NCBI GenBank assembly: GCA_950295325.1 | Contig: OX485806.1 | Coordinates: 11,966,001 to 12,030,000 of the forward strand | Direction: 5' to 3' | Origin: Polytrichum commune | Taxonomy: Eukaryota; Streptophyta; Polytrichopsida; Polytrichales; Polytrichaceae | DNA length: 64,000 nt | Shown here: positions 1 to 64,000 of the stretch, in pieces | Layout: every line of letters starts with the position of its first letter | How positions within the stretch are numbered: position 1 is the stretch's first letter | Notes under the pieces: generated by a model | Told to the model about the DNA's origin: nothing | The model's database searches: none | Seen by the model: only the letters and a program-made list of their open reading frames with translations | Translations under genes and position numbers: made by a program

Positions 1-492
1 AAGGGGATTTGGCTACATGTATAGGAAGTTGGGAAGGAGTAGAATGAACACTTCTAAATGGAAATGGCGATGTGTTTGAAAGATCAACAGATGCACAAAT
101 GTCATCTTCTGAATATGATAACACAAACACACTATCATCAAGGGGTTCCACCTTAACAAGTGTGATAGAGGGAATTTGAACTGTGGATGTACCGGATTCG
201 TTTGTCAAAATGACAGTTGAAGCTTGCATCTGAGACTCAGAAAGTCCTATCACCCTAAATGAACCAGGTCCTAAGATCCACATAAAATCAACATCAGTTT
301 TATTTTTTGAAACCAAAATCGTTTCATACACCTCTCCATCTGCAGAGTACATCTCATGTTCTAAATACATGGTTCATATCTGGAGGTTGAATCTCAAACT
401 AAGTAAATCCTCTGAAACACTCACATGACCATCATCTTGGAGTGGCAAGATGAAGGGAACAAAAGATCCATGAGCTCTAATGATAGCCATAG
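1..492 (-). pseudogene. Leftward ORF of divergent cassette, copy 1 (unknown family, runs off window)
   Basis: Read on the minus strand from an ATG at 492, this gives about 160 codons to the window edge, starting MAIIRAHGSFVPFILPLQDD and continuing through segments such as GPGSFRVIGLSESQM. One in-frame TGA interrupts it near 378, after LRFNLQ. The rest reads cleanly and looks coding, so the copy was probably lost recently or the stop is a private mutation. A second fragment at 5878-6021 has the same first 20 residues with a single substitution and continues to the EDLLSLRFNLQ segment, which supports a real protein family. It is divergent from the methyltransferase-like gene that starts about 520 bp to the right. 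I do not recognise a domain. The acidic, Ser/Thr-rich tail gives no assignable function. Confidence 0.5.
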
Positions 493-1012
493 AAAATCAA
501 AAGAACATATGAACAACACATCACAAAAATATGGAGTGATTGTTACTTTTGTATAGAGTTGTGTGAGGAAATGAATGGAAATGAAAACGTGTGATACAAT
601 AATGGATGGAGATGAAAGCGTGTGATACATAGCATCTAATAATACAGAAGTGGACATAACACAATAATAGTCAGAGAATATTTACGAGCAAGATATATAC
701 AAAATGACGTTAAATATTAAAAGTATTGGTAGAAATTTAAAATATATATGTGTGGACTGACGTAGATGTAGAAAGAATTAAAATTGGTTGGAGAAATAAA
801 TTATTGATCATTATGAATAGAACAAAGTAGGTGTCAGAAAATTTTGGCGGATATAACAAAAATAAACACATAATGACAAACGCGTCGAAATATCTCGTTC
901 ATTGAACGCCAATTACAACATGTGATCGTAATATACGCCGGATTTTGTGAGATAGATACATTGGAAGAATAAATTATAGTACCTGATAGAAAACATATCA
1001 TAGATACCAGCA
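493..1012. promoter_or_regulatory. Shared intergenic region of the divergent cassette, copy 1
   Basis: This ~520 bp spacer separates the leftward ORF start (492) from the degraded start of the rightward gene (1013). Much of it aligns by eye with 6022-6661 of the second copy, for example around 505-530 and 840-960, where both share phrases such as aacaacacatcacaa and cattg-acgccaa. Conservation of a non-coding spacer between two copies of one cassette suggests a bidirectional promoter, but no TATA box or other element can be assigned with confidence. Confidence 0.4.
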
Positions 1013-1498
1013 ATAGTGGACGATGTAGAGAGAACACCCGTGAGGCCGAAGAGAAGACGTAGGAAAGCTTTGTATTTCACTTCCGAGAAAAAGAGGTTCA
1101 AAATCAGTGTGGGAAAGAAGGATGCAAATAAGGAAGGGAAAAGAAACTTGTTGAGTACGGTAGAAAAAACTGTGAAGACACTGGATTTTGATGCGATGGA
1201 GGATGATGAAGGTGCAAATAACAAAGAAGATGTAGACGATCGTATATCAGAGTCCGAATTGAAGACGGGTTCAAAGAAGAGGACAAACAAAAAGGTAAGT
1301 CAGTTCAACGTTCACATAATTTGATAGTGCATAAGTTGTAAGTTAGGACGGAGAACCTTGTACGTTCACTCACATGTCATGTAGTAGCAATTTATAGAGG
1401 TTATAAATTGGAGAAGAGAAATCCTATACGTTAATGCACATGATATATAACAGAAATTTAAGAAGGCTAGAAGTCAGGAGGAGAACGCACAGGGTTTA

Positions 1499-3107
1499 TG
1501 TGAGGCCAAACCCACCACCCTTAAGCGTCCTAGTCCGGGTGATGGTTTTGAGAATCACATGTATTGTTTGTGTATTGAAAATGCTCCCTTCACATCCTAA
1601 GGCATTCATGTCATCTTAATTCACCGTGTTTTATTAATATTAGCCTCTTGGCTTATGGTAGAGTTTGATTTCTCAAGAGTCCAACCCGCGGCTTTGGCCA
1701 CACATGCCCTCAAGGAAATTCCCCTTGCACCCTTAGTCTTGATTTCCTTTGTCTGGCCATCGCTAGAGTTGTTAACATTCTCCATCACTTGCGCACTTGA
1801 TTTATGTTGACTTGGGAGTGTGAAAGTGTTAAGAAACACTTTACTTCATAGTCACTGTTACATGCAATCACGTGTGACTTCCACACACACATCACCTATC
1901 CTATTGAGCTTTAACACTTGTCTAGGAACTATTTTAATCTACAATTAGTCTAACACCCTCATGACTAGTTTTTAGTGGCACCCTCTACTTTATCCTAGCC
2001 TCGGCTTGCTAAACCGACCACCCGGCTAATTAACCTATTGGTCCAAATCCGGCCTATTTACCGGCAGTCCCTTGGTTAACATGGACGCAGCAACTAAGTA
2101 GATTCAGTCTTAGCTGCCAGCAGCAACTAAGTAGATTCAGGACCAGCTGCCCAGCAGCAACTAAGTAGATTTTTGTCCCAGCTGCCCAACAACAACTAAG
2201 TAGATTCAGGCTCAGCTGCCCAGCAGCAACTAAGTCGAGTTCAGTCCAGCTGCCCAGCAGCAACTAAGTCGAGTTCAGTCCAGCTGCCCAGCAGCAACTA
2301 AGTAGATTTCAGTCCCAGCTGCCCAGCAGCAACTAAGTAGATTCAGGCTCAGCTGCCCAGCACCCTAATCCCACAAAGATCCAACGCCTAAATAGGCAAC
2401 CCAGCTACTAGTTGCACCTTAATACAAACCCCTTCATATACTAAACAAATGTTTTCTAGGTCCTTCTTCTTCTTCTTCTTCTGTTCTTTGCTCCTAAGTC
2501 ATGAACTAATCTAACACACTAATTTCACTAACTACTACCTAATCACCACGTGCAATCTTAGCTCTAAGAGCTCACTTACTTGGGAGGTATTGGGAGAGAG
2601 AGCTTAACTAATTAACTTCACTAAAAACTAATGTCCCACACACGTGGCTCAAGCTCTTAAGAGCTTGCTCCCTTGAGAGCGCTTGATGGAGAGAGTTGAA
2701 AATGAAAGAGAAAACACTTTAAGTAGCAAAGAGGGAGAGAGGGAGAGAGGGAGAGAGGGAGGATTAGCACCTCCAATCACAATCCCTTAACCTTCACCTT
2801 CAAAGTAGGGACTAATCCCCTTCCACCAAGCTTCCTTTTTCCTAAACTACCAAGGTGGATCCAAAAGTGGGCATTTAACCCGCGGAGCTCACCTTGCCTC
2901 ACCTTACCCTTTACTCACATAATCAAGGCATCCTCTTATTGAATTCAACCTTGAAATAATCACACAACACATTCTAAAGTCTAAACTTAAATCCAAACCA
3001 CACTTCACTCTTTTTATGTTTTGTGAATAATCATAACACATCAAAGTCAAACTAAAAGTGGTTTCGAAGAGTTAATCACCACATGTGGGCACCATTTTGG
3101 GCTCACA
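1499..3107 (+). mobile_element. LTR of a retrotransposon inserted in intron 1 of the methyltransferase-like gene
   Basis: The segment begins TGTGAGGCC and ends GGGCTCACA, giving inverted LTR termini. It is followed after four bases by TGGCGACCATCGGGGGG (3112-3128), placed like a tRNA primer-binding site. A second copy at 14774-16260 has the same first ~45 bases and the same 3' end features (a run reading cttcactctttttat, then accattttgggctca). Inside it is a 34-38 bp tandem array (2085-2365) and a GA-rich tract (2731-2762). No gag or pol sequence follows; about 120 bp of leader remains before gene sequence resumes near 3240. A gttta motif borders both sides (1494-1498 and ~3231-3236), which may be a target duplication or chance. 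The missing internal region makes this a remnant. Confidence 0.7.
2085..2365 (+). repeat. Tandem array inside LTR 1, ~8 units of 34-38 bp with a CAGCTG core
   Basis: Eight imperfect units share the phrases cagcagcaactaagt and agctgcccagcag; spacing is 33-38 bases. Each unit carries the palindrome CAGCTG. Variation between units is mainly at the agattcagg/cgagttcag segment. The array sits in the part of the LTR that would be U3. Confidence 0.85.
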
Positions 3108-3111
3108 TAAT

Positions 3112-3128
3112 TGGCGACCATCGGGGGG
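3112..3128 (+). other. Candidate primer-binding site of the LTR element
   Basis: TGGCGACCATCGGGGGG lies four bases after the LTR end. A TGG start is required for pairing with a tRNA 3' CCA, and TGGCG-type sites are common in plant LTR retrotransposons. I could not match the remaining bases to a particular tRNA. Confidence 0.5.
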
Positions 3129-5877
3129 TGAATCCAAGATCGTTTGCTTCGAAGGTAAATGCCGAATTCACGCCCGGTATTGCTTACAACGACTTCCCGA
3201 GGTCCGCGTAGTCAAGAGCTCTCCGTTAAACAAAGTTTAATTAACATGAGTTGTTGAAAAACACCTCATTTACAAGTGAGAGAGTAACCCAACCACATGC
3301 GCTTTTGTGCGGAACTCGGTGATGTGTAACTCCTTGGGATTAATAATAACACCATTGAAGGTTAGACCGATATCTAGGCCATTTTTCCGAAAAAGGTGAA
3401 AGAGAGGAGTTCTCTCCATGGTCTTCGGTCCGCTCATGGCGATATTGTCTACTCTCTCCGATGTGCCTACTCTCTCCGAGTATATCCAAACCTGGAAGTT
3501 TGCGGCTTTCAATTCAATATTCTATCGTGAATTCCAAAGCGGAAAAGTCAAAAAACACAACGGTTGGGATGAGCAACCTAATATTGATCTTGCTATGAAA
3601 CGTGTATTATACAGGTACAACCTAATCTTATTATTTTTTTGATTTTTTTTTATTCCATTTGTCAAATTGTCATGGAATATTTGACTTACAATATTTTTGT
3701 GTGTAGGTATTTTCGATATGTTTTGATTCCACATAAATGCGTTATAGAGGAACCTCGTTTTTTCCCAAATTGGCGTGACACTGGTGCAGGAGATTCATGC
3801 ATGTTCACTACTGAGATTTGTTTGGATTGGTCGCTCCCACACTATGAGGATTGTGGTTGGTATCTTAATTGTCCTAAGGATGTATGTCTGTCGAGTGAGA
3901 AGACAATCCGTCAAATAAATGATGCTAAAAATGTGGATCCTCGTGATACTGCAATTTTGCAAGCACAAATTGTGCAGCTTAAACTTAGAGAGTCAGAACC
4001 AAAAGAAACAAAACGTCGTAAGAGGAAACATGTTCCTGAAACCAAAATACAAGATCAATCGGAAATTTCACAACATGAAGAATTGTTTGTTCTTTCCAAT
4101 GATTTGGATAAGAATCCACTTGGAAGCGAAAGTTCAAAGTTTGGGTGCGTATTGGAATTTTATTACTCGAGCACCTATGACGCTATTCATCGTGCGCCAA
4201 CGAATGTTTTGAGAAAAGAGTTATTCATACTGAAGAACTTTCTCACGCTCTCTTTTGCTCAATCTACTGCTGTCAAGAACAAGTCTGAAGGGATTGAAGT
4301 AGGCCCTCCTGAGTGGATCCAATGGCGGGCATTTCTTGAAAACGTAAGTATTATTGTTTTGGTATTTTCTGTAATGTTCTTACTTTCATTTGGATTTTAT
4401 TTTGTGTCTTATATTGTGATATGTTGTGGTATTTCAGTTCAAAGACAATCGCGAATTTCATGTCATGGGAAGTCCGACTTCATTTGCCGTTGACTTGGTT
4501 TTTCTGCAATTTCCCGACGGTCTTGACTTCAACCTCTCCAATAGACCTGCTGAAATTCCTCTTTGGAATAAATATGACAAGAACTGGATGGTTGCAACAA
4601 TGTCCTTGTGCAAGTCCATCTTGTCTGATGATGGCGTCCTCATAGTATTTTCTATTATCGATATGCAAACCAAGAAGGTTTTGAATTCAACCTTACACAA
4701 CGGCAACATGAAAGTTCTTAGGACTTTTATTTGCCTCAATTCGTACATGGTGTTCAAGGATCCGGAGTCTCCAACCTACACCGTAAGTATAACACATCAC
4801 AATTGTTTCTATTTAATTATTTTGGTGTTATTTGCATTGTATATAGTTTTAACACAATTTACATTTTTTTGTAGACTCCGGTATTTATGGCTCATGTCTT
4901 GGTAAGGGATTTTACTACCACAAAATCCACGAGACAACCAAACTCCATTTTTTTTTGCACTGGATTGAAAACCAAAAACTTGCTTTTCAATTTTGTGGAT
5001 GAAAAAAACATGCTTCTTAAAAAATCGGGAAGACCTTGGAGGGGGCCATATCAAAAATCGCCGCGTTTTTTTTCAAGATCTTATTGAATTGTTTACACCA
5101 TCGAATGGACGCGTAATTGATTTGACATGTTCCACTGGAGCTTCTATCCTAGCAACACGCGCATGTGGCAGACATCTTCTTGCATTTGAGGGTGATAATG
5201 ACATGTTTGAGCACATATTGAAACCGCTTTTAGAAAACGTTTTGAAAGAGGGGTCATCTAAGGAGAATATACAAGATCTCACAAAAGAAGATGATAACCT
5301 CTCAGATGAGGAGATGCTTGAATTTGAGTGTAAGTAAGTTTTAATACAATAAATTTTTATTCAATTTATTCGTTTCATTCAATTCATTGGTTCATTTTTA
5401 TTTCTTCACATTATTTACATGTTTCATCGATTTGATTTCAGGAATACGATTGGAAAGAAGACATGTCTCCCGTTTTGGGCACATAGACAATTCCTACGAA
5501 GTCCAAGCCGTAGCCCGCGTCTCCCATCATATGCCGAGAATGTTGCAATTGCAATGTTGAATCTCGAAGATTCGGATCCAAATGAAGAATCTTGCTATAG
5601 TTCCAAAATCAATTCGCAATGCAAAGGTGCTCGAATATATATAGATGACGAGGCAAAAGATAGTTTCATGTCTAGTGCTACTACTGATGAATAAATTTTT
5701 GGACTTCATGTTGTTTATCCTTCTCAACCCTCTTATTACTAACCCTAAAATCATCATTTTTAAGGCCACAATTCCACGGTTATAGGATATTGGTGGCCCT
5801 ATTACCAAAATTTTCATCTTCCTCACTGCTCATAAGTTACCGCTCATTGCTCACCGCTCATAAGATAGCACTCCCCT

Positions 5878-6021
5878 CTCATGCTCTAAATACATGATTC
5901 TCATCTGGAGGTTGAATCTCAAACTAAGCAAATCCTCCGAGACATCTTGAAGTGGCATGACCATCATCTTGAAGTGGCAAAATGAAGGGAACAAAAGATC
6001 CGTGAGCTCTAATAGTAGCCA
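5878..6021 (-). pseudogene. Leftward ORF of divergent cassette, truncated copy 2
   Basis: On the minus strand from an ATG at 6021 this matches the start of the leftward ORF of copy 1 (MATIRAHGSFVPFILPLQDD). A short duplication of the phrase encoding PLQD shifts the frame, after which the EDLLSLRFNLQ segment continues in another frame. Homology ends near 5878, shortly before the 3' end of the first methyltransferase-like gene. Only about 45 codons remain, so it is a relic. Confidence 0.6.
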
Positions 6022-6661
6022 TAGACAATAAGGAATAGATGAACAACACATCACAATAATATTGGTTTAACGTCGTTTTTTTCAGTGATGTACAATATAA
6101 TAATAGATGGAAATAAAAACATATGATACCATAGCATCCAATAATACAGAAGGAGACAGATCATAACAGTAGTCAAAGAATATTTGCAAACAAGGCATAG
6201 AATCCTAAACCAAATCCTAAAAAATAATATCTGCTTTAGAAACTAAGCCATAGGAAATTTGAACCCACAAAGGAGTTGTGTAATTTAAGATTACCACATG
6301 GGAGAAATGCGGGTACGGATATCATGAAGAAAACGGCGTCAAATTATAAACAAGTTGGCAGAGTTTTAAAATGTGATTGTGTAGGCTGGATGTAGATGCA
6401 GGAATAATTAAATTTGGCTGGAAAAGTAAATAATTGGCCATTATAAATAAAACGAAGTGGATGTGGAAGGTTGGGATATCAGATAAATTTGGCGGATATA
6501 CTAAAAATAAAAATAGAATGAAAGACGCGTTGATATAACTTAGTCATTGGACGCCAAGTGCAACACGGATGATCGTAATACGCGCCAGGTTTATGTGAGA
6601 TATAATCACTAGAAGAATGTATGAAAGTGGAGTGGTAGAGGGCATATCATAGACACCAACG
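6022..6661. promoter_or_regulatory. Shared intergenic region of the divergent cassette, copy 2
   Basis: This ~640 bp spacer aligns with 493-1012 in several blocks and again separates the two divergent starts. It is longer than in copy 1 and has an unshared block near 6190-6320. It supports the idea that the two ORFs moved or duplicated together with their control region. Confidence 0.35.
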
Positions 6662-6979
6662 ATGGTGGAGGATGTAGAGAGAACACCAGTGAGGCGGAAG
6701 AGAAGGCGTAGGAAAACTTTGTATTTTATATCTGAGAAAGAGAGGTTCAGACTGAGTATAGGAAAGAAAAATGCAAGTAGGAAAGGGAAAAATATCCTTT
6801 TGAGTACAATAGAAAAAACTGTGAAGACATTGGATTTTTATACAATATCAACAATGGCGATGGAGGATGATGAAGGTGCAAAAAGCAAAGAGCATGCAGA
6901 CGATCGTATATCGGAGTTGGAAATGAAGACATTATTGTGGTATGTCAAAAGTAAAGTGGGCCACATCAATAGGTGTTAA
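6662..6979 (+). pseudogene. First exon of the methyltransferase-like gene, truncated copy 2
   Basis: It starts with an intact ATG (MVEDVERTPVRRKRRRRK). It matches copy 1 exon 1 through RISE, with a small insertion giving YTISTMA. Homology fades after about 6930, before the donor site used in copy 1, and none of the later exons is found downstream. The lysine/arginine cluster near residues 10-18 could act as a nuclear localisation or nucleic-acid contact region. This copy shows what the copy 1 start codon looked like before it decayed. Confidence 0.6.
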
Positions 6980-8278: not shown

Positions 8279-8330
8279 TGTCAGCCACAAACTCCCACCC
8301 TTATGCGTCGTAGTCCGGGTGAGAATTCAT
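8279..8330 (+). mobile_element. Possible truncated start of a third LTR of the same family
   Basis: The phrase cacccttatgcgtcgtagtc followed by cgggtga matches the first 45 bases of the LTRs at 1499 and 14774 with a few changes, and is preceded by TGTCAGCC in place of TGTGAGGCC. No matching 3' LTR end was found in the next 2 kb, so only a 5' fragment can be supported. Confidence 0.4.
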
Positions 8331-14773: not shown

Positions 14774-16260
14774 TGTGAGGCCAAACCACCCACCCTTAAG
14801 CGTCCTAGTCCGGGTGAGGGCATGGTGATCACATTCATGTTCACATAACTCTAATTCTTTCTACGTAATTAAACTCCCTTACATTCCACATCAATCTTGG
14901 CACACCAATCCATTCCACGATAAGATTACAAGCGTTGACAAACGCTCTTCTCTATTATGACAATCCTAACACACCCTCTTACGACCCAAACATCACTCAC
15001 ATCCAAGTTCACCCACTAATCCTACCATCTAATGCCTCGTGTTCCCCTAACTTGCTAATGAACTAATCATCTAAATTAATATCATGTAATAACCTCATGA
15101 ACTAACTATCACATAATCTAGTGTAGTACTATTGACTTCCCCCCTTTATATCACCTCAGTCTCATCCCCTTTAGGCATCTACCTAAATCCCTCAAGGCCC
15201 AGCCTTCTAAGCTTCGGCAGCTGCCACTCAAAGTCCAACATTAAGCTTCGGCAGCTGCTACTCCAAATTCCAGCATTAAGCTTCGGCAGCTACTACTACA
15301 AATCCAGCACTCCCAATTCACCTTCTAAGCTTCGGCAGCTGCCACCCAAAGTCCAGCATTAAGCTTCGGCAGCTGCCACCCAAAGTCCAGCATTAAGCTT
15401 CGGCAGCTGCCACTCAAATCCAACATTAAGCTTTGGCAGCTGCTACTCCAAATTCCAACATTAAGCTTCGGCAGCTGCTACTACGAATCGAGCACTCCAA
15501 ATTCCAACATTAAGCTTCGGCAGCTGCTACTACGAATCGAGCACTCCCAATTCGCCTTCTAAGCTTCGGCAGCTGCCACTCAAATCCAACATTAAGCTTC
15601 GGCAGCTGCTACTCCAAATTCCAGCATTGAGCTTCGGCAGCTGCTATTACAAATCCAACACTCCCAATTCGCCTTCTAAGCTTCGGCAGCTGCCACTCAA
15701 ATCCAACACTAAGCTTCGGCAGCTGCCACCCAAAGTCCAGCATTAAGCTTCGGCAGCTGCTACTCCAAATCCAGCACTCCCAATTCGCCTTCTAAGCTTC
15801 GGCAGCTGCCACTCAAATCCAGCATTAAGCTTCGGCAACTGCTACTACGAATCCAGCACTCCCAATTCGGAAGCAAGGGGAGGGGGAGAAGAGAGAGAGA
15901 GGGGGGGGGGAGAGAGGGCCCCTAAGCCACACACCCCTTAACCTTTCCAACTAAAAATAGATCAAGCCTATCCACTAAACCCTCAACCTCTAAAGCAACA
16001 CGGGAAGGCCTCAATTCAAACAATTAAACCCCAAGGCCCTTCCCCTTCCTTAACACACAACTCTCAACCTAATTCAACCAACCCCCTAATGCCACTAATC
16101 CTTTAGTTAACCACACAAAAATAAGCCTAAGGCCTAAAACATAAATCCACACCAAGCTTCACTCTTTTTATACTTTTTGATGTTTCAAAAATGACCTCAA
16201 ATGCAATTCTAAGTAAATCCTAAACATAAAACAAATATGAGCAACCATTTTGGGCTCATA
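14774..16260 (+). mobile_element. Solo LTR of the same family as the element at 1499
   Basis: It starts TGTGAGGCCAAACC and ends GGGCTCATA (the terminal CA of the family has become TA). It is flanked on both sides by GGGGG (14769-14773 and 16261-16265), consistent with the 5 bp target duplication of LTR retrotransposons, though the left copy lies in a G run. No primer-binding site or internal region follows, so this is a solo LTR left by recombination between two LTRs. It shares its first ~45 bases, a GA-rich tract (15885-15918) and the last ~100 bases with LTR 1, but its tandem array is a different sequence. Confidence 0.75.
15195..15865 (+). repeat. Tandem array inside solo LTR, ~17 units with an agcttcggcagctgc core
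   Basis: Units of roughly 33-50 bp repeat the phrase aagcttcggcagctgc, with spacers such as cactcaaatccaacatt and tactccaaattccagcatt. Longer super-units ending in cactcccaattcgccttct recur about every 110-130 bp, showing block duplication. Each unit keeps the CAGCTG palindrome also seen in the array of LTR 1. Confidence 0.9.
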
Positions 16261-23095: not shown

Positions 23096-24676
23096 CAGTG
23101 ACTTCAAGAAATGAGTCTATGAGGGTATTTGATTTAGAAAAGTAACAACGTAGAGAGTATGAAGAATCAAAGCAATAAATTTTGAACATGAAAGTTTGAG
23201 AGCATGAAGTAACTGACAACCTCAAGAAAATTGAAAAGAAATTGCCACTAGATTAAAAAAATACATAGTGCCAAAGTTGACTATGTACATAGACTCATTT
23301 TTTGAGGCATTATAGAAAGAGTCTTGTCCACTTTCCACGAGCAGCCAAAACAGCTGCAATTCGATCCGGCATGCTAGCATACAATCTCTCACACTGCTCT
23401 GTAGTGATCGTCTTATAAGTCTCCTCCACACGCTCCCATAATTGCAAAAGACCTACAGGAGGAGTTGGATAGGAATTCAAACGATGTTTGAGAATTGCCC
23501 AAACATGTTCTATGGGATTTAGGTCTGGGGATTGAGCTGGCCACTCTAAAATAGTGAATGGTTGCTTTAAGAACCATTTCTGAACAATCTTTGCCTTATG
23601 TATAGGAGCATTATCATGCTGGAAAATGACGTTATCAAGGTTCAAGTATCCTAATCTCTCTAAACTCAAGTACAAATCTCCATGCAAGATTGTAATATAG
23701 TCCTTCGCATTTATACGCCCATCCACCTTTTGTAAATCACCTACACCTCTTGTTGTCATACAACTCCATAGCATCAAAGACCCTCCACCATGCTTCACTG
23801 TTTGCTTCACCGCACGATCAGGGAAGCTTTTTTGGTCATTGACCCAACACCAAGTCCTCCCATCCGCATTGAAACGATTTATCTTCATTTCATCACTGAA
23901 TACAACTCTCTTCCAATCCTCTATTGTCCACTCTTCATGAATTCTTGCAAATCGTAACCTCTCATACATTTTTATGTGACAAACAAGACTTAGGAATCTT
24001 CTCACAGGCACTCAATCCAGCATCTCTCAAAGCAGACCGCAAAGTGTTATCACAGAAACCCACTTCTCTACCCTCTCTCAACACATTTGTTGCATGTACT
24101 GCCGTTTCCAGCCCTCCAACCGTGACCAAACGCACAGCACGTCGTCTCTCTGAAGTGCTAAGAATCTTTGGAACACCTCGTTTTGGCAATTCTAAGTTAC
24201 TACAATGTTTCTTCCTCACTCTATTCACCGTACTCAGTGAGAAACCCAATGACTTCGCAACCACTCTTATACTCTTACCTTTCATCAAAATAGCAACAAT
24301 ATCTCTCACTTTGTCTCCTGAAATTGGCTTCATCATGCCAATTCTAATTCCTATTCTCCACAGTATGGTCCACAAGAAGGAAGAGAAGAGAAATCACAAA
24401 AAAATTCATCAAAAAACACAAATTTCTCTATGTTCTACACTCATGTGAAGTTGCTCCACAAGCCACCTCAAAAAATGAGTCTATAAGGGTACATGCACAT
24501 TTGTGATCTTAACTCACAATGTAGATATTATTTAGGCAAAGCACCATGTGGCATGTGTTAAGAGTGCATGAGGCACAATACATTTTTTTGCTCGGCTTCA
24601 TCCACCTTAATGTTTCCCAGCTAGCCCCCATCAATGCTCCTTGATAGGGGCATTGACTCATTTCTTGAAGTCACTG
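23096..24676 (-). mobile_element. Tc1-like DNA transposon, 1581 bp, TA target duplication
   Basis: Terminal inverted repeats of 22 bp are perfect: CAGTGACTTCAAGAAATGAG plus TC at 23096-23117 and its reverse complement at 24655-24676. A TA dinucleotide flanks each end. Subterminal copies of a related motif (ctcaaaaaatgagtct) lie at 23291-23308 (reverse) and 24466-24484 (forward), resembling the paired binding sites of IR/DR-type Tc1 elements. The single transposase gene lies between. Length, CAGT start and TA target all match the Tc1 family. The perfect TIRs and only one clear coding lesion suggest a fairly recent insertion. Confidence 0.92.
23310..24375 (-). pseudogene. Tc1-type transposase (DD34E), one frameshift
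   Basis: The first frame (24375-23962) begins MWTILWRIG and carries the N-terminal helix-turn-helix DNA-binding region, with the phrase KGKSIRVVAKSLGFSLSTVN. The second frame (24011-23310) carries the DDE catalytic domain: first Asp in VVFSDEM, second in FQHDNAPIH, Glu in DLNPIEHVWAIL. I count 34 residues between the second Asp and the Glu, the DD34E signature of Tc1 transposases. The two frames overlap. The break falls at an A5 run near 23975, between SHKN and YERLRFARIHEEWT, which read continuously across the junction in family members. Combined length is about 345 residues, typical for Tc1. One homopolymer indel appears to be the only inactivating change; a sequencing error would also explain it. 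Confidence 0.9.
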
Positions 24677-53639: not shown

Positions 53640-54895
53640 CTTGGAGTAAATTAGGAAGCTCTTAGCCCATACTTTATTATTTTGTTCATCGTTTTCTCCA
53701 ACTCTCCTTGTCATCTGATAAGAGGTCTTGAGGGCTGCACTCAATGTAGCATAACCTGATGTATCAAAACCTAGTTGTTTCACAATTTTTTGGACCCAGA
53801 AATAAAAAAACACTTCATTTCTAAATGGCTGTGATGATTTAAAGATTCCCTCCAAATATATGCCATAGCTTAGGGTTCATGGATCAACATGGTTTAGCCT
53901 ACAGAGACCAGGAGCCTGCATGGTCTTCAATTTCTACCTTGAGCCACAGATCATAGCCATCACATTGTGATACATCAAACTACTTGTATTCACATGGAAG
54001 TCACTGCAACCTGCTAAAGGCTTGTGGAAGAAAAGAAAAGAAAACATTGGTATTGCAACACGTGGAAGGCCACCAGGGTTGGTGTTTACACTACACAATG
54101 TTTTTGTATAATGCATTATGTGGTACAGAAAGCCTAGACACCCTAAATTTATACTCATTCACAGTTGGGAGCGTGCCAACTTTCTAAGTCCTTCCACCTT
54201 CACAAGTAGGATCAAGTCATGAGTAATTCTCTGTCCACCACAATAGTAAGTTAGCTCAAGGTCTCGATCAAGGATGACAAGCAAACAAGAGTTGTGGTAC
54301 ACATCTAATGCTCGTATTTGTTATTTATTTCCATCACCCGACAAGCCAATTGAATCGTATTTGTTATTTCATTATGTCCATAATCAGTACATAAGTTCAA
54401 ACTTTCTTCAAGACCAAGTTCCCATGTGCCTCTCACTACCTACATTGTGCACCCCCAATGCTTCCATCAAAAGTCACATCATGGGTGTGCTACGAAGCTG
54501 GGTGTAGAACTCTGGCCTTTATAATATCTAGTATCAGAAGGATTGCGCATGTTGTGGATAACAACAGACTTGGGTACTTCAATCGAATGCCATACACAAC
54601 GACAAGTGTCAAAAATGATTATTTTCTTCAACCCTTCGATGGTCTTGATGAAGATCTTTTCAATCACACCAACGCATGACATTCTGTAAAAACACCCATC
54701 CTCCATGAACGCTTTGCATGAAGGAGTTGGCATTTGTGAAAGATGGCACCATGATTGTTCTGTCACATCAAGCTTGAACACATGCACATTGCCCCTTCTG
54801 TCAATGCTCAAGTCCATTGTCATGAGCATCATGATGTCCCTCCCACAAGTCGTATGTTGTTGGCGGCAATTTGTCCAAGTGTTGGGCCTTTACAT
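53640..54895 (-). pseudogene. Decayed ORF fragments, possibly F-box/kelch-like
   Basis: On the minus strand, 54832-54479 reads 117 codons with GNVHVFKLDVTEQSWCHLSQ and then CFYRMSCVGV, a pattern like the F-box-associated or kelch repeats of plant F-box proteins (a display element followed by a W then a hydrophobic strand). Further down the same strand are pieces such as YDLWLKVEIEDHAGSW near 53930-53980 and FWVQKIVKQLGFDTSGYA near 53760-53810, separated by stops and frameshifts. No F-box itself was found. The assignment is weak; it may equally be an unrelated gene relic. It lies tail-to-tail with the fibrillin gene. Confidence 0.3.
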
Positions 54896-54904
54896 TGTTC
54901 GCTA

Positions 54905-56065
54905 CGATGCCAAACTGTCGACTACTATGGTTCATTAACTGGAATATAGTTGCATCTTACAGAATACAAAACACCCATATATATACAAATTGCTTGGATA
55001 CACCGCTAATACAAATGCATGGGAGGTCAAATTGTTGACTACTACGGCTCATTAACCGGAACAGAGTTGCATCTTACATAATACAAAACACCCATATATA
55101 CACAAACTGCTAGGATACGCCACTGATACAAATGCATGGGAGGTCAAACTGTCGATTACTACGGCTCATTAATTGGAACTGAGTTGCATCTTACAGAATA
55201 CAAAACACCCATATATATACAAACTGCTTGGATACGCCACTGATACAAATGCATGGGAGGTCAAATTGTTGAATACTACGGCTCATTAATTGGAACTGAG
55301 TTGCATCTTACAGAATATGAAACACCCATATATATACAAACTACTTGGATATGCCACTGATACAAATGCAAACGGTCGACTACAATGGCTCATTAATTGG
55401 AATTGAGTTGCATCTTATAGAAGACAAAACACCCATATATATATACAAACTGCTTGGATACGCCACTGATACATATGCATGGGAGGACAAACTGTTGACT
55501 ACTACGGCTCATTAATTGGAACTGAGTTGCATCTTACAGAATACAAAACACCCATATATATACAAACTGCTTGGATACGCCACTGATACAAATGCATGGG
55601 AGGTCAACCTGTCGACTACTACGGCTCATTAATTGGAACTGAGTTGCATCTTACAAAATACGAAACACCCATATATATACAAACTACTTGGATATGCAAC
55701 TGATACAAATGCAAACGGTCGACTACAATGGCTCATAAACTAGAATTGAGTTGCATCTTATAGAATACAAAACACCCATATATATACAAACTGCTTGGAT
55801 ACGCCACTGATACAAATGCATGGGAGGTCAAACTGTCGACTACTACGGCTCATTAATTGGAACTGAGTTGCATCTTACAGAATACAAAACACCCATATAT
55901 ATACAAACTGCTTGGATATGCCACTAATACAAATTCATGGGAGGTCAACCTATCGACTACTACGGCTCATTAACTGGAACTGAGTTGCATCTTACAAAAT
56001 ACGAAACACCCATATACATACAAACTGCTTGGATACACCACTGATACAAATACATGGGAGGTCGT
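54905..56065. repeat. ~117 bp satellite array, 10 units with three-unit higher-order period
   Basis: Unit starts (gtcgactactacgg or variants) fall near 54915, 55036, 55152, 55268, 55375, 55495, 55612, 55717, 55837 and 55952. Each unit contains gagttgcatcttacag, aaaacacccatatatata, caaactgcttggatacgcca and atgcatgggaggtca. Units at 55375 and 55717 are ~107 bp, lack the tgggaggtca segment and share private changes (tcgactacaatgg, cttatag). The distance between them is 342 bp, three units, and the neighbouring units repeat at the same distance. No coding potential; spacing is head to tail without spacers. Confidence 0.92.
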
Positions 56066-56196
56066 TGACCTCAGGGTTCTCACGTATTTGTTGCAGAACC
56101 AAAGATGTCTATGGAAGGCGGGGCAACGAGAACGGGTGGTGCAACTTGATTATCGTGTAGCTTCTAAAGTCTTCTTGTTCTACCACTAAGGGGTTG

Positions 56197-59328: not shown

Positions 59329-61792
59329 TTAAGGTGTAACCGGTGCAAGTGATGTTGGTGATGGAGCTGTCGATATGTATTGCAACATGTACAAATTGGA
59401 GGAGCATAATTCAGAAAGATCCTCGTGGATTGTTATAAGACTTTTCTGCAGAGTCCGCAATGAAGGTAACATCTCAGCTTGACGTCCCTCCATGGTTTTC
59501 CCATGTATAACAACAACTTCCTGCATGCATAAATCACCCCCATTAGTGAATACAGACTTGAACCCATTATTAAATACATCACTTTGGATTGCACTGATCT
59601 CTACTGCACTTGCTGTAAGGTAAGTGGGTCTTAAAGGAACTTTCCTCTCTGCACCCACTCCTCATAGGATATTAATAACGCAACGAGTGCGAGATGTTTA
59701 GCAAATCCAAATCTTGCCGAGTCACTTTCCTCATAATTTTCAGTCCTCATAATCCTATTCATTGTCAAAGTGAAGATTCTCTTAATTAATGACTGATCAT
59801 ATATGCCCCCCCATTTATGTTGACTATTACGTCTAAAATGGTTCACAAAATTTGAGTGCACAGTCCAATCACTTTTCAACACATGTCTTTTTGGTGAGTT
59901 CTTAGATTCACACCCAACCATACACCATTCAAATATAGGTGTCTTTATGATCAGAAATCGAATTAGGTACATCTACCTTATATTGTACTTCAACATCATG
60001 CAATAAAACCTTGTCACATTCCCCAAAATGTCTCTGCTCAATGTTTAATCAGGACACAAGAGGCATGGGATAGGAAAATGGATCTGCACCTGACACCATA
60101 ACAGCAGAAACTCAAGGTGAATGGATCTCTCCAAGTAGTCTGCCAAAACATTGCACAGAGTGGCCAAATAATTGACTGGAACAGCAGCGACAACAGCTGT
60201 AATTTCAGAGGGATTCACCGCCTCCACACACTTCTTGATGAGCTTGGGTTCGTTAAGGCGAAGAGCAAGAATGAGTGCCCGGGATGTGAGCTTTTCTGCA
60301 AGTGCATTATTTATAGTCTGCAGCAAGAACCAGCATTTGAGTCAAGTCAGAGTCATACATGACAATCTCTTGCTCATGGTACAGAATTAATCATACTTGT
60401 GCCAAATCTCAAGCTACCATGAATTTGGAAACTACCAAAGTGTAAGTAATGTAATGAACGAACCTCAGGTGTGACATCAATGGCGATGTCTGCTGGATCA
60501 AAAATGAGATTGTCATCCATGGAATAGATAAGCAGGCCTTCGGTTGTAGCAGCTGCAAAAGTCCTCCCTGTTGCACAAAGCTGTAGTGCTTTAGTACGTG
60601 CAATAGGTCGCCCAAAGTTTGCCTGTGTTCCTGGCAATTTATGTCCCAACTGTTTATATGATTGTTTCATGCTGTCATCATCACTGTCATAGTCATCAAT
60701 CAAATCCAACGGTCCATCACTAGTCATGTTCTTTGAGTTCAAAAAATCCAAAACTCCGTCCAAAGCTTTATTGTTTGTAATTTGGATTCTTCTAAGCAGT
60801 ACCTGCACAACATCCATATACATTTGTGAGTGAATGACATGACATGACATGACATGACAATGATGAAAATAACGAGGTGGCTCAACAGTTTGAGTGAACG
60901 ACTAACACATGAACACTTCAAATATGCAAATGACTTGACAAAACAGAACCATCTGCATCATTTGAATACATACACTACAAATTGATTACAAAAGTATGCA
61001 CCCTTTCATGAGCAGCATCAAACTCCCACATACACTATTCTGACTTTCTAGAGATGAACCAAAAATAAGAGTAGACATGAAACTGTGAAGAAGGCAACTC
61101 AACCTGTTCAGCTACATCATACATGCAGATATATTTGCTGGAGCCTCCAGCTAGGATAAAGGAACCATCAGCAGAATAACTCAAACTGCTAAACGACTTT
61201 CCTGCACTAGAGTTGGCGGCTGTCCTCCGGTCACCCATAAGGCGTCCACCTGTGATGTCCCGCCTGCCATCAATACTGGCAGATTCAATTGCCTCAATAG
61301 GGTCCCAGAAATGGATGTGTCCATCAAGTGTACTGCAAGCGATTTGTTTACCATCTGGACGGTAAACAACTGTAAGCACATCATGGGTGTGAGTTAGGGT
61401 CTCAACATTGCCCTTTCCTTCAAATACATCCCAAAGCTTGACGGTCTTGTCCCATGATGATGAAGCAAGCATTTCCTGGTACAAGCAACGGAATGTGTAT
61501 GAATATGCAGGCTAGATACTCAGGTTCAGATTATATATTAATGAATTTCAGAATCATAGTCTTTCAGAACCCCACAAAATTCTGCACCTGCTTAGAAAAT
61601 ACTGTCCTTTGAATCAGATTATACCTTCTATCATCAGGTACCATTAGTTAGGACAATGATTACTAGTCTGTCTTCATCAGACTCTAACCACAGGTAAGGC
61701 AGACTGGTCCTGGCATTTTTCCAACCAAGTAGATCTTAGAAGCTTTGTGTGGCATCGTCTCAATGTACATACAAAGAAGAGCAGAGGGGAAA

Positions 61793-61842
<50 letters not shown>

Positions 61843-64000
61843 TAACATGGGAAAATAAGCATACTTACAGAGACAGGGGAGAAAGACAATCCATGAACTG
61901 GTCCTTCATGTCCACTTAGAACATCCAGCAGCCTTCCTGTTTTAACCGACCAAACATAGATCTGGCCACAAACTCAAATTAGTCAAAAATCTGTCCACCA
62001 TGAAGCTTAAATTTGCAACCCTACAACTTACCAAGCCAGAAATGATACTTTGACACTCAATGTCTGCATTATAGGTCTTCAGAAAATTCTAATTGATGCA
62101 TCAGCAATGCTGTCCAACTTCTCACTACAACAGGGAGTAAATGATCAAGATAATAACCCAATCCAATTTGCCTTTGTCATTTGACTGAAGCATTAGATCC
62201 TCACACCACATAACCCCACAGACTTGGGGAAGATGTTGAAGTAGGCCCTCAAAGGGAAACTTCAATTGTACCTGAAAACCATCAAGACTTCCAGCACAGA
62301 GGATTTCGCCACTCTGATCTGCTGCGAGTGAAACAAATTGTGCCGGCTTTGGTGTGGTGAACGTCCTGAAATTCCGGTACCGCACCAGATCATATGCCCT
62401 TACAGTTCCATCCAGGGAAGCACTGACCACCACATGATTTGTAGGAAGGAAGAGGACAGCTGTGATGGAGTTTGTGTGCTCAGTGAACGTCACATAGCAT
62501 GAACCAGATGCAACATTCCAAAGCTGTATACAAAAAAACCTGTTCACTGTCAGAGGAGGCCAAGTTGCTTGAAATGACACTGCACAATAGCTGACATAAC
62601 TTCAATAGCCTACCACATCAGTAGAGTGTACAACCCCAACCCTGTTTTAAACCCCAGCCTTAGGATAAGAAAGTATGAGCCCACTACATGAGGGTATGTA
62701 AGACACACACGATGATGCAATGTTTTTAAGGAGATGGTTGCTACATTGGACTTCCTTTCTGAATGTACAATTGACAAGAATAGACAAGAATAGATCCAAT
62801 ATCATCAAGCTGAATGTATGTGAATCCTGTGGTGCACTGACACACCAAGAGACAGTGACCATGTGTGCTCTGGCAAGGGCTTTAGGATATGAAAGGATGA
62901 GCATACTAGAAGAGGGTATAAGACATACACAACATGGACTGACGTTAACCCTAAAAGGAAGTGGGATGTGTGTCTATATGGGACACATGACGACTTCTAC
63001 GAACCTGAACAAACAATGAAATATTACTTTATGCGGTCTATTGTATTGGATCAATTTTTAGCACTACCTCTTCAAAAGCGGAAGTGAAAACAAAGTCATG
63101 CGTGATAACGGTGATTAGATATACAGGGTATGTATTTAAGTCTAGGTCATTTATACGAGATCAAATGCCCTAATATTCCATTAAACATATATGAATGATC
63201 CAATTGGAATTATGCATATGATGAATGGGTTTGTTTCATACAGGGTAGATATTTATATGTTTGGCTGAAAATATCCTTAATTTAAACTTAAACCCCTCCG
63301 TACGACATCTCCAGGCCCAGACTGGGCCTCTCGGAAGTTTAAAGGTTAAGGAGATGGTGGAAGAATCAAAATGCAGCATGTAAAAACTTGAGAAGTCTGA
63401 AGTAGAGGATTAGGGTTTTGGGTCCAAACCTTGAGCTTACTGTCATCTGCACCACTAGCCAGGTACTGCGAATCAGGTGAGAAGGCCAGAGTGTTGACAT
63501 CGAAGAAGTGACCCTGCTGCTTAAGAATCTGTGTCTCAGTCCGCCACTCCCACACGAGCAACTGCCCCAAACTTTTACAGCCCATTCCAATCCAGTTTCC
63601 CGCACCATTGAAAGCCACTGTTGTAATCTGCTTGCTGGAAATGGAGAGAATATGATGGCAAGTGAACTCCGGAAGCTGGTAAATCCCAAACACTCCGGTG
63701 GCGAATCCTGCTACTAAAAAGCTTAAACCTTGGTGGTAATCACAGGATGTCAATTTAGCATGTTGCATGAAGAAATTCTTCTTAGTTACCTCCCATTTCC
63801 CGGTTGTAAGGTTAACCCCACCCTGTTTCTCACCAGCCCCATCCTTAGCCATGTAGCTCCATTCAAAGATGGCTCCATCTCTCGAAACGGTATAAAGGCC
63901 AACATCTCCCCCCAATACCATCGGCTTTGAGAAGTAAACCCCCTGCAAAACATCTCTGTGCCCTGTAAGAGTCACAGGCAGCCTCTCTTCAAGCCTGTTG
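59329..64000 (-). CDS. PWP2: PWP2/UTP1, WD40 protein of the small-subunit processome (3' part, 5' end outside window)
   Basis: Seven exons: 64000-63430 (partial), 62523-62272, 61961-61869, 61475-61104, 60802-60464, 60317-60090 and 59520-59329; all introns are phase 0. The visible ~680 residues cover WD40 repeats (GHRDVLQGVYF; CDYHQGLSFLVAGFATGVFG; GHFFDVNTLAFSPDSQYLAS; SASLDGTVRAYDLVRY; SGHEGPVHGLSFSP; MLASSSWDKTVKLWDVF; YSADGSFILAGGSSKYICMY) and then the Utp12-type C-terminal region (ILALRLNEPKLIKKCVEAVN; LPSLRTLQKSLITIHEDLSE). PWP2 is a nucleolar UtpB-complex subunit needed for early cleavage of pre-rRNA and 18S rRNA production. About 200 N-terminal residues should lie beyond the window. 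No lesion seen. The protein ends with a short Pro/Ser-rich tail (TAPSPTSLAPVTP). Confidence 0.95.
61797..61852. repeat. (TG)n(TA)n(CA)n microsatellite in a PWP2 intron
   Basis: A compound run of TG, TA and CA dinucleotides that forms a palindrome (tgtgtgtg ... cacacaca around an AT core). Confidence 0.95.

Follow-up and report, generated by a model that had tools for sequence, protein, structure and literature searches.

The first 7 kb of a 64,000 nucleotide stretch of the Polytrichum commune genome (the window; contig OX485806.1, here C4:11966001–12030000; genome 407.8 Mb in 64 contigs, seven of them large) carry two divergent gene pairs that belong to a high-copy DNA transposon with terminal inverted repeats (TIRs). 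This transposon family, referred to together with its methylase-like gene as family A, appears to be a two-gene Mutator-like transposon in which a putative transposase is accompanied by a methylase-derived helper that may counteract silencing. The explanation as a whole seems somewhat probable; the anatomy of the element is close to certain, and the anti-silencing role of the accessory protein, proposed by analogy, is a tentative suggestion that may well not hold.

When window positions 1–3000 were searched against the genome, 2,351 first-look candidates resulted, 40 of which were scored, so the copy count is a lower bound. At least 40 matches cover window positions 1–1499, the window's own included, and the other 39 are 95%–97% identical. 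For a detailed comparison, the DNA around seven further copies was set against the window extended leftward. Homology to these copies has sharp edges, starting at C4:11961814 and ending at window position 5876. The element terminates in inverted repeats of ∼38 bp that match imperfectly (GAGGGAAGCTATCTTATGAGCG... at one end, GGGGAGTGCTATCTTATGAGCG... reversed at the other; the right TIR lies at 5839–5876 on the − strand), and their 28-base core has 200 exact occurrences in the genome (reversed control, 0). A perfect 10 bp target-site duplication, different in sequence each time, was observed in six of eight elements (the window's own, c9, c10, c12, c13, and c16); c14 lacks such a duplication, and no right end was located for c15 in the 17 kb read. 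Mutator-like elements make target duplications of 8–11 bp. In the window, the 10 bp sequence TCTCATGCTC flanks the element on both sides, at 5877–5886 on the right and at C4:11961804–11961813 on the left. This element measures 10,063 bp, and six others with both ends read measure 10.2–12.7 kb. Copy number (at least 40 left-part matches, 200 TIR cores) rules out an ordinary gene pair. The suspicion of a mobile unit in a preliminary description of the window is borne out by the shared termini, the target duplications, and the many copies.

Both gene pairs of that description, each with a basic exon 1 and a conserved spacer, are present. In pair 1, a leftward open reading frame (ORF) opens with an ATG at position 490 and extends to position 1 (−), and the basic exon 1 lies at 1013–1294 (+); the corresponding parts of pair 2 are at 5887–6022 (−) and 6662–6931 (+). 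Ungapped blocks common to both pairs and the spacer are 73%–92% identical, far above chance. Neither pair is complete in itself; both are pieces of a larger transposon. Window positions 1–5876 are the right part of a young element that occupies C4:11961814–11971876, with its left 4,187 bp outside the window. The DNA on its left side (1,314 bp read) corresponds to element positions 3242–4576 with 85% identity, and window 5877–6931 corresponds to element positions 4567–5482 with 77%–82% identity; the ten-base overlap of these two flanking parts is the target duplication. Pair 2 (remnant at 5887–6931, comprising the transposase start, the spacer, and exon 1) is thus what lies to the right of the break in an older copy that was split by the young one. 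The young copy thus inserted into an older copy of the same element, and the co-duplication that had been suggested is real in that both pairs exist but arose by nested insertion. A local segmental duplication is excluded, as the pairs are of different ages and an exact junction of TIR and target duplication lies between them; nor are other copies lacking, with 39 found elsewhere.

The young element is also not the full copy for which it had been taken. Its methylase-like gene has ATA in place of a start codon and a frameshift in exon 7, its transposase exon contains one in-frame stop, and a foreign insert at 1500–3459 replaces ∼3.4 kb of the element, comprising most of intron 1, exons 2 and 3, and most of exon 4. 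The insert is not found in the seven other copies read and, by eye, resembles a fragment of a long terminal repeat (LTR) retrotransposon that includes the LTR itself, the 5′ leader, and a primer-binding site; a stretch 80% identical to the first 44 bases of the insert lies at window 8279–8322. The divergent spacer (491–1012) is conserved in both window copies and in other copies. Comparison of copies and exon mapping placed the remaining parts of the rightward gene, all on the + strand: the start of intron 1 (1295–1499), which in other copies runs on into tandem arrays of 22 bp palindromes, the surviving 3′ part of exon 4 (3460–3614), exon 5 (3707–4343), exon 6 with the motif IV region (4438–4782), exon 7 with motif I (4875–5333), and exon 8 with the stop codon (5442–5694).

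The leftward ORF, previously assigned to no known family, is the N-terminal part of the first exon of a putative transposase (window 1–490, −). In other copies it continues into a two-exon gene of ∼1,165 residues. The protein contains, as judged by eye, D, D, and E residues in Mutator-like contexts, together with a SWIM-like CxCx..CxH end. The ratio of nonsynonymous to synonymous differences (pN/pS) is 0.20 in exon 2 (21 pairs, with one of the seven copies poorly aligned there), indicating purifying selection. These features suggest that the leftward protein is a DDE transposase that moves the element. No relatives of it were found in viral contigs. The two genes travel together: in 37 of the 40 left halves, a methylase exon of the same orientation follows downstream at a distance of no more than 20 kb, compared with an average of 0.165 at random positions. 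This fraction is a lower bound, as the comparison was made with the best methylase matches only (150 scored of 1,367 candidates in the methylase-exon search of the genome). The halves with no linked exon are at C6:7958366, C2:50411671, and C3:8742564; the two ORFs are not apart at most loci, as would have spoken against a linked unit.

The rightward gene has eight exons common to the copies, as mapped in seven of them. Its introns mostly follow GT..AG, with exceptions in c9 (exon 3 acceptor), c13 (exon 2 donor and exon 3 acceptor), c14 (exon 2 and exon 8 acceptor), and at exon 4 of the window copy, the 5′ part of which is foreign. Damage in at least one of the two genes was seen in every one of the seven copies read, not each of which was fully checked. 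The pN/pS values for exons 1, 2, 4, 5, 6, 7, and 8 are 0.79, 0.27, 0.22, 0.39, 0.55, 0.54, and 0.58, computed from 7, 4, 6, 31, 35, 36, and 36 copies, respectively; exon 3 (too few copies of equal length), copies of unequal length, exon 4 of the window, and exon 2 of c14 were left out.

Homology supports a relationship of the C-terminal half of the predicted protein to beta-class N4/N6 amino-methyltransferases. A composite query matched PHROG_67 (DNA methyltransferase) with E = 6.5e-8 over the regions of motif IV and motif I, and alignment to PHROG_67 and to family B, a second methylase family in the same genome, gives the motif order IV then I. Motif I is largely retained in family A (DLTCSTGAS at ∼5119–5145 in the window). 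At the position of the DPPY of active enzymes, the window copy reads LQFPDG (∼4504–4521), and the 30 loci fetched of the 150 scored read QFPD (26), QFSD (2), or QFPN (2). Both the acidic or polar first position and the aromatic last position of motif IV are thus altered in 30 of 30 loci. Since the catalytic site is QF[PS][DN] throughout, the rightward protein is probably a pseudo-enzyme. The beta-class layout recognized in the preliminary description therefore stands as homology, but the catalytic motif is degenerate. With the Pfam model N6_N4_Mtase (PF01555), family A scores 16.1 bits, under the cut-off of 26.7 bits; NCBIfam gave no match, and searches of solved structures gave weak matches only, none of them useful. 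A ParB domain in exon 2, considered on account of an IWDGNHR stretch, was rejected: neither Pfam ParB_N nor hhalign supported it. ParB_N (PF02195) has four matches in the genome, all on the small contigs C10, C12, and C23, and hhalign against four bacterial or phage ParB-methylases, with shallow profiles, found them unrelated. These three contigs (L060, L061) are bacterial- or phage-like, carry canonical ParB domains, and are likely to be assembly contaminants; C10 and C12 also carry DNA methylases, and one C12 ORF has both ParB and methylase.

Family B (locus L062) is 23% identical to family A over 537 aligned positions (E = 2e-37). It passes the N6_N4_Mtase cut-off (32.5 versus 26.7 bits) and has DIPYG at the site of the family A LQFPDG. 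Exons 2–4 of family A have counterparts in family B, including the IWDGNH motif, the DNA pattern of which occurs 117 times in the genome (0 and 1 for two reversed controls). There are about 11 close copies of family B, with a Pfam methylase match near 10 of them. No transposase was seen in the 900 bp upstream of the family B gene, Pfam MULE matches are absent from the 500 kb on either side of the 11 loci, and tblastn of the family B methylase part against phages gave no match. Weaker matches suggest additional families. Two of these matches, weak relatives of the exon 4 region of family B, fall at C5:32575094 and C5:17579712 in uninterrupted open frames of 1,820 and 1,823 codons, which may be long genes belonging to the host or to other elements.

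The introns of family A contain tandem arrays of two 22 bp palindromes, P1 (GTTTGGGTCGNNCGACCCAAAC) and P2 (CCCTGTGCGTTAACGCACAGGG), and the length of the arrays differs between copies. P1 sites are found in the transposase intron and, within the methylase-like gene, in intron 1, with 5–24 sites per element in six elements (at most 3 mismatches); c9 does not have the relevant part of the transposase intron. P2 is found in intron 1, with 8–20 sites per element. Both are absent from 32,480 bp of flanking DNA and from window 7000–64000, as well as from the window's own element, from which the array-bearing part has been lost. In the genome, P2 has 444 exact occurrences (control, 0). Among the 50 sites listed, 45 lie within 7 kb of a family A marker and the other five come from one locus that holds a family A copy, where they are flanked by a left-type TIR at C1:433664 and a right-type one at C1:483241; P2 is confined to family A among these sites. 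P1 has 9,231 exact occurrences (control, 0). Clusters of P1 extending over ∼10 kb with no family A marker nearby were observed, for example, at C1:616088–626110, C1:1180627–1190831, and C1:2115505–2125765, with several periods such as 78, 64, and 57 bp.

A role like that of VANC is proposed because a methylase-derived accessory protein that is under selection and has lost its motif, together with private palindrome arrays, resembles the VANDAL/VANC arrangement. The rightward protein, which by homology descends from a beta-class amino-methyltransferase, would have lost catalysis and would be retained as an accessory protein that binds DNA or S-adenosylmethionine. It may recognize the element's own intronic palindrome arrays, and this recognition could keep the element expressed despite silencing by the host, in the manner of VANC and the VANDAL elements of Arabidopsis. 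Several observations weigh against parts of this explanation. The leftward gene is classed as Mutator-like by the 10 bp target duplication and, by eye, by its motifs, but the Pfam MULE model (PF10551) has no match in the protein, and the 142 places in the genome that it does match all lie more than 15 kb away from any of the 40 left halves; Pfam SWIM reached only E = 0.077 and 0.14, below its cut-off. The first exons of both genes are weakly constrained (pN/pS 0.70 from 15 pairs for the transposase, 0.79 for the methylase-like gene). Only 22 of 100 listed P1 sites are within 20 kb of a family A marker, and the presence of P1 in other repeats speaks against a purely private recognition system. 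A more specific version, in which a captured bacterial-type methylase became a dead self-recognition protein that binds family-private intron palindromes and blocks silencing, with the VANC strategy evolved independently and sister families spanning the range from a DIPY-bearing to a dead site, is unlikely.

Other functions of the rightward gene can be weighed against the same data. It could encode an active DNA methylase whose motif IV is non-canonical and which marks element DNA with N6-methyladenine or N4-methylcytosine, for protection or to tune transposase binding. The DIPYG of sister family B, the largely retained motif I, and the constrained exons would fit such an enzyme, but the alteration of the first and last positions of motif IV at all 30 family A loci and the score under the Pfam methylase cut-off make it quite improbable. 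The protein may instead be a transposition co-factor with no part in silencing, like maize mudrB or a strand- or end-binding partner. A divergent second gene, linked here in 37 of 40 cases, is also a feature of other two-gene Mutator elements (PMC6446971); the arrays, being in introns and not near the TIRs, argue against this alternative, which is rather unlikely. A further alternative, also rather unlikely, is that the arrays are plain minisatellites with no binding protein and that the accessory gene is a passenger. This is consistent with the wide distribution of P1 beyond the family at various periods and with the variable length of the arrays. It is opposed by the purifying selection on the methylase-like gene, by the confinement of P2 to family A in the 50 sites listed, and by the P1 sites listed, in which the center bases vary and the half-sites are exact, as the search pattern itself demanded.

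VANC-binding motifs of VANDAL elements form tandem repeats in introns and upstream regions, where VANC removes DNA methylation (PMC5735166). Family A shares with VANDAL/Hiun an accessory gene and family-specific short motifs arrayed in introns (PMC5735166), but its motifs are 22 bp palindromes. The nearest kind already known is that of Mutator-like elements with accessory genes: MuDR (mudrA/mudrB) likewise has TIRs, target duplications (10 bp here), and a transposase with a second gene; in contrast, the second gene of family A is methylase-derived, its transposase is missed by Pfam MULE, and the host is a moss. Virus-borne Mariner elements carry methyltransferases, and Fanzor1 is found in MuDR-type elements (PMC3627910); the former resemble family A as DNA transposons with a methyltransferase gene but differ in superfamily, viral setting, endonuclease partner, and methylase families (PMC3627910). 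In fungal DNA transposons, TET/JBP dioxygenases represent a DNA-modification family with a proposed anti-silencing role, as would family A, though they are dioxygenases rather than methylases and their hosts are fungi; SET in an oomycete MuDR is mentioned in the same paper (PMC12730594). The N4CMT reported from bdelloid rotifers is a bacterial-type amino-methyltransferase in a eukaryote that is tied to transposon control, but it is an active enzyme encoded by a host gene, has a chromodomain, and silences transposons (PMC8885841). Table 1 of PMC6446971 gives the extra genes or motifs of Mutator groups as SET, ovarian-tumour, PMD, FAR1, MutB, and unknown, with no bryophyte phylum, and the words "methyltransferase" and "Physcomitrella" are absent from the main text of that paper. 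In a paper on the transposons of Physcomitrium patens, the terms MULE, Mutator, and methyltransferase do not appear (PMC7466625). Among the open full-text papers at the top of literature searches, as judged by title and start of abstract, none dealt with a plant Mutator element that has an N4/N6-methylase gene.

Elsewhere in the window, an open frame at 23310–24011 (−) by eye resembles a Tc1/mariner-type transposase; fungus-like Mariner elements are reported from P. patens (PMC7466625). Tandem repeats at 54851–56185 and 15209–15813 each have a period of 117 bp. Exons of a WD40-repeat protein, recognized by eye at 60374–63999 (−), are probably those of a host gene. In the genome at large, light-harvesting genes are abundant, and one LHCII protein differs from PDB chain 8htu_U, from the moss P. 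patens, at 8 of 208 residues (counted by eye), in keeping with a moss host.

The workings of accessory genes in plant Mutator elements are known for only a few, one of which, VANC, has revealed that a transposon can lift silencing from itself with sequence specificity. If another accessory family, apparently unrelated to VANC, were to work through a private palindrome array, it could be tested directly whether anti-silencing evolves repeatedly. Family A would also present a predicted methylase fold that selection has maintained in a transposon even though its usual catalytic residues are gone.

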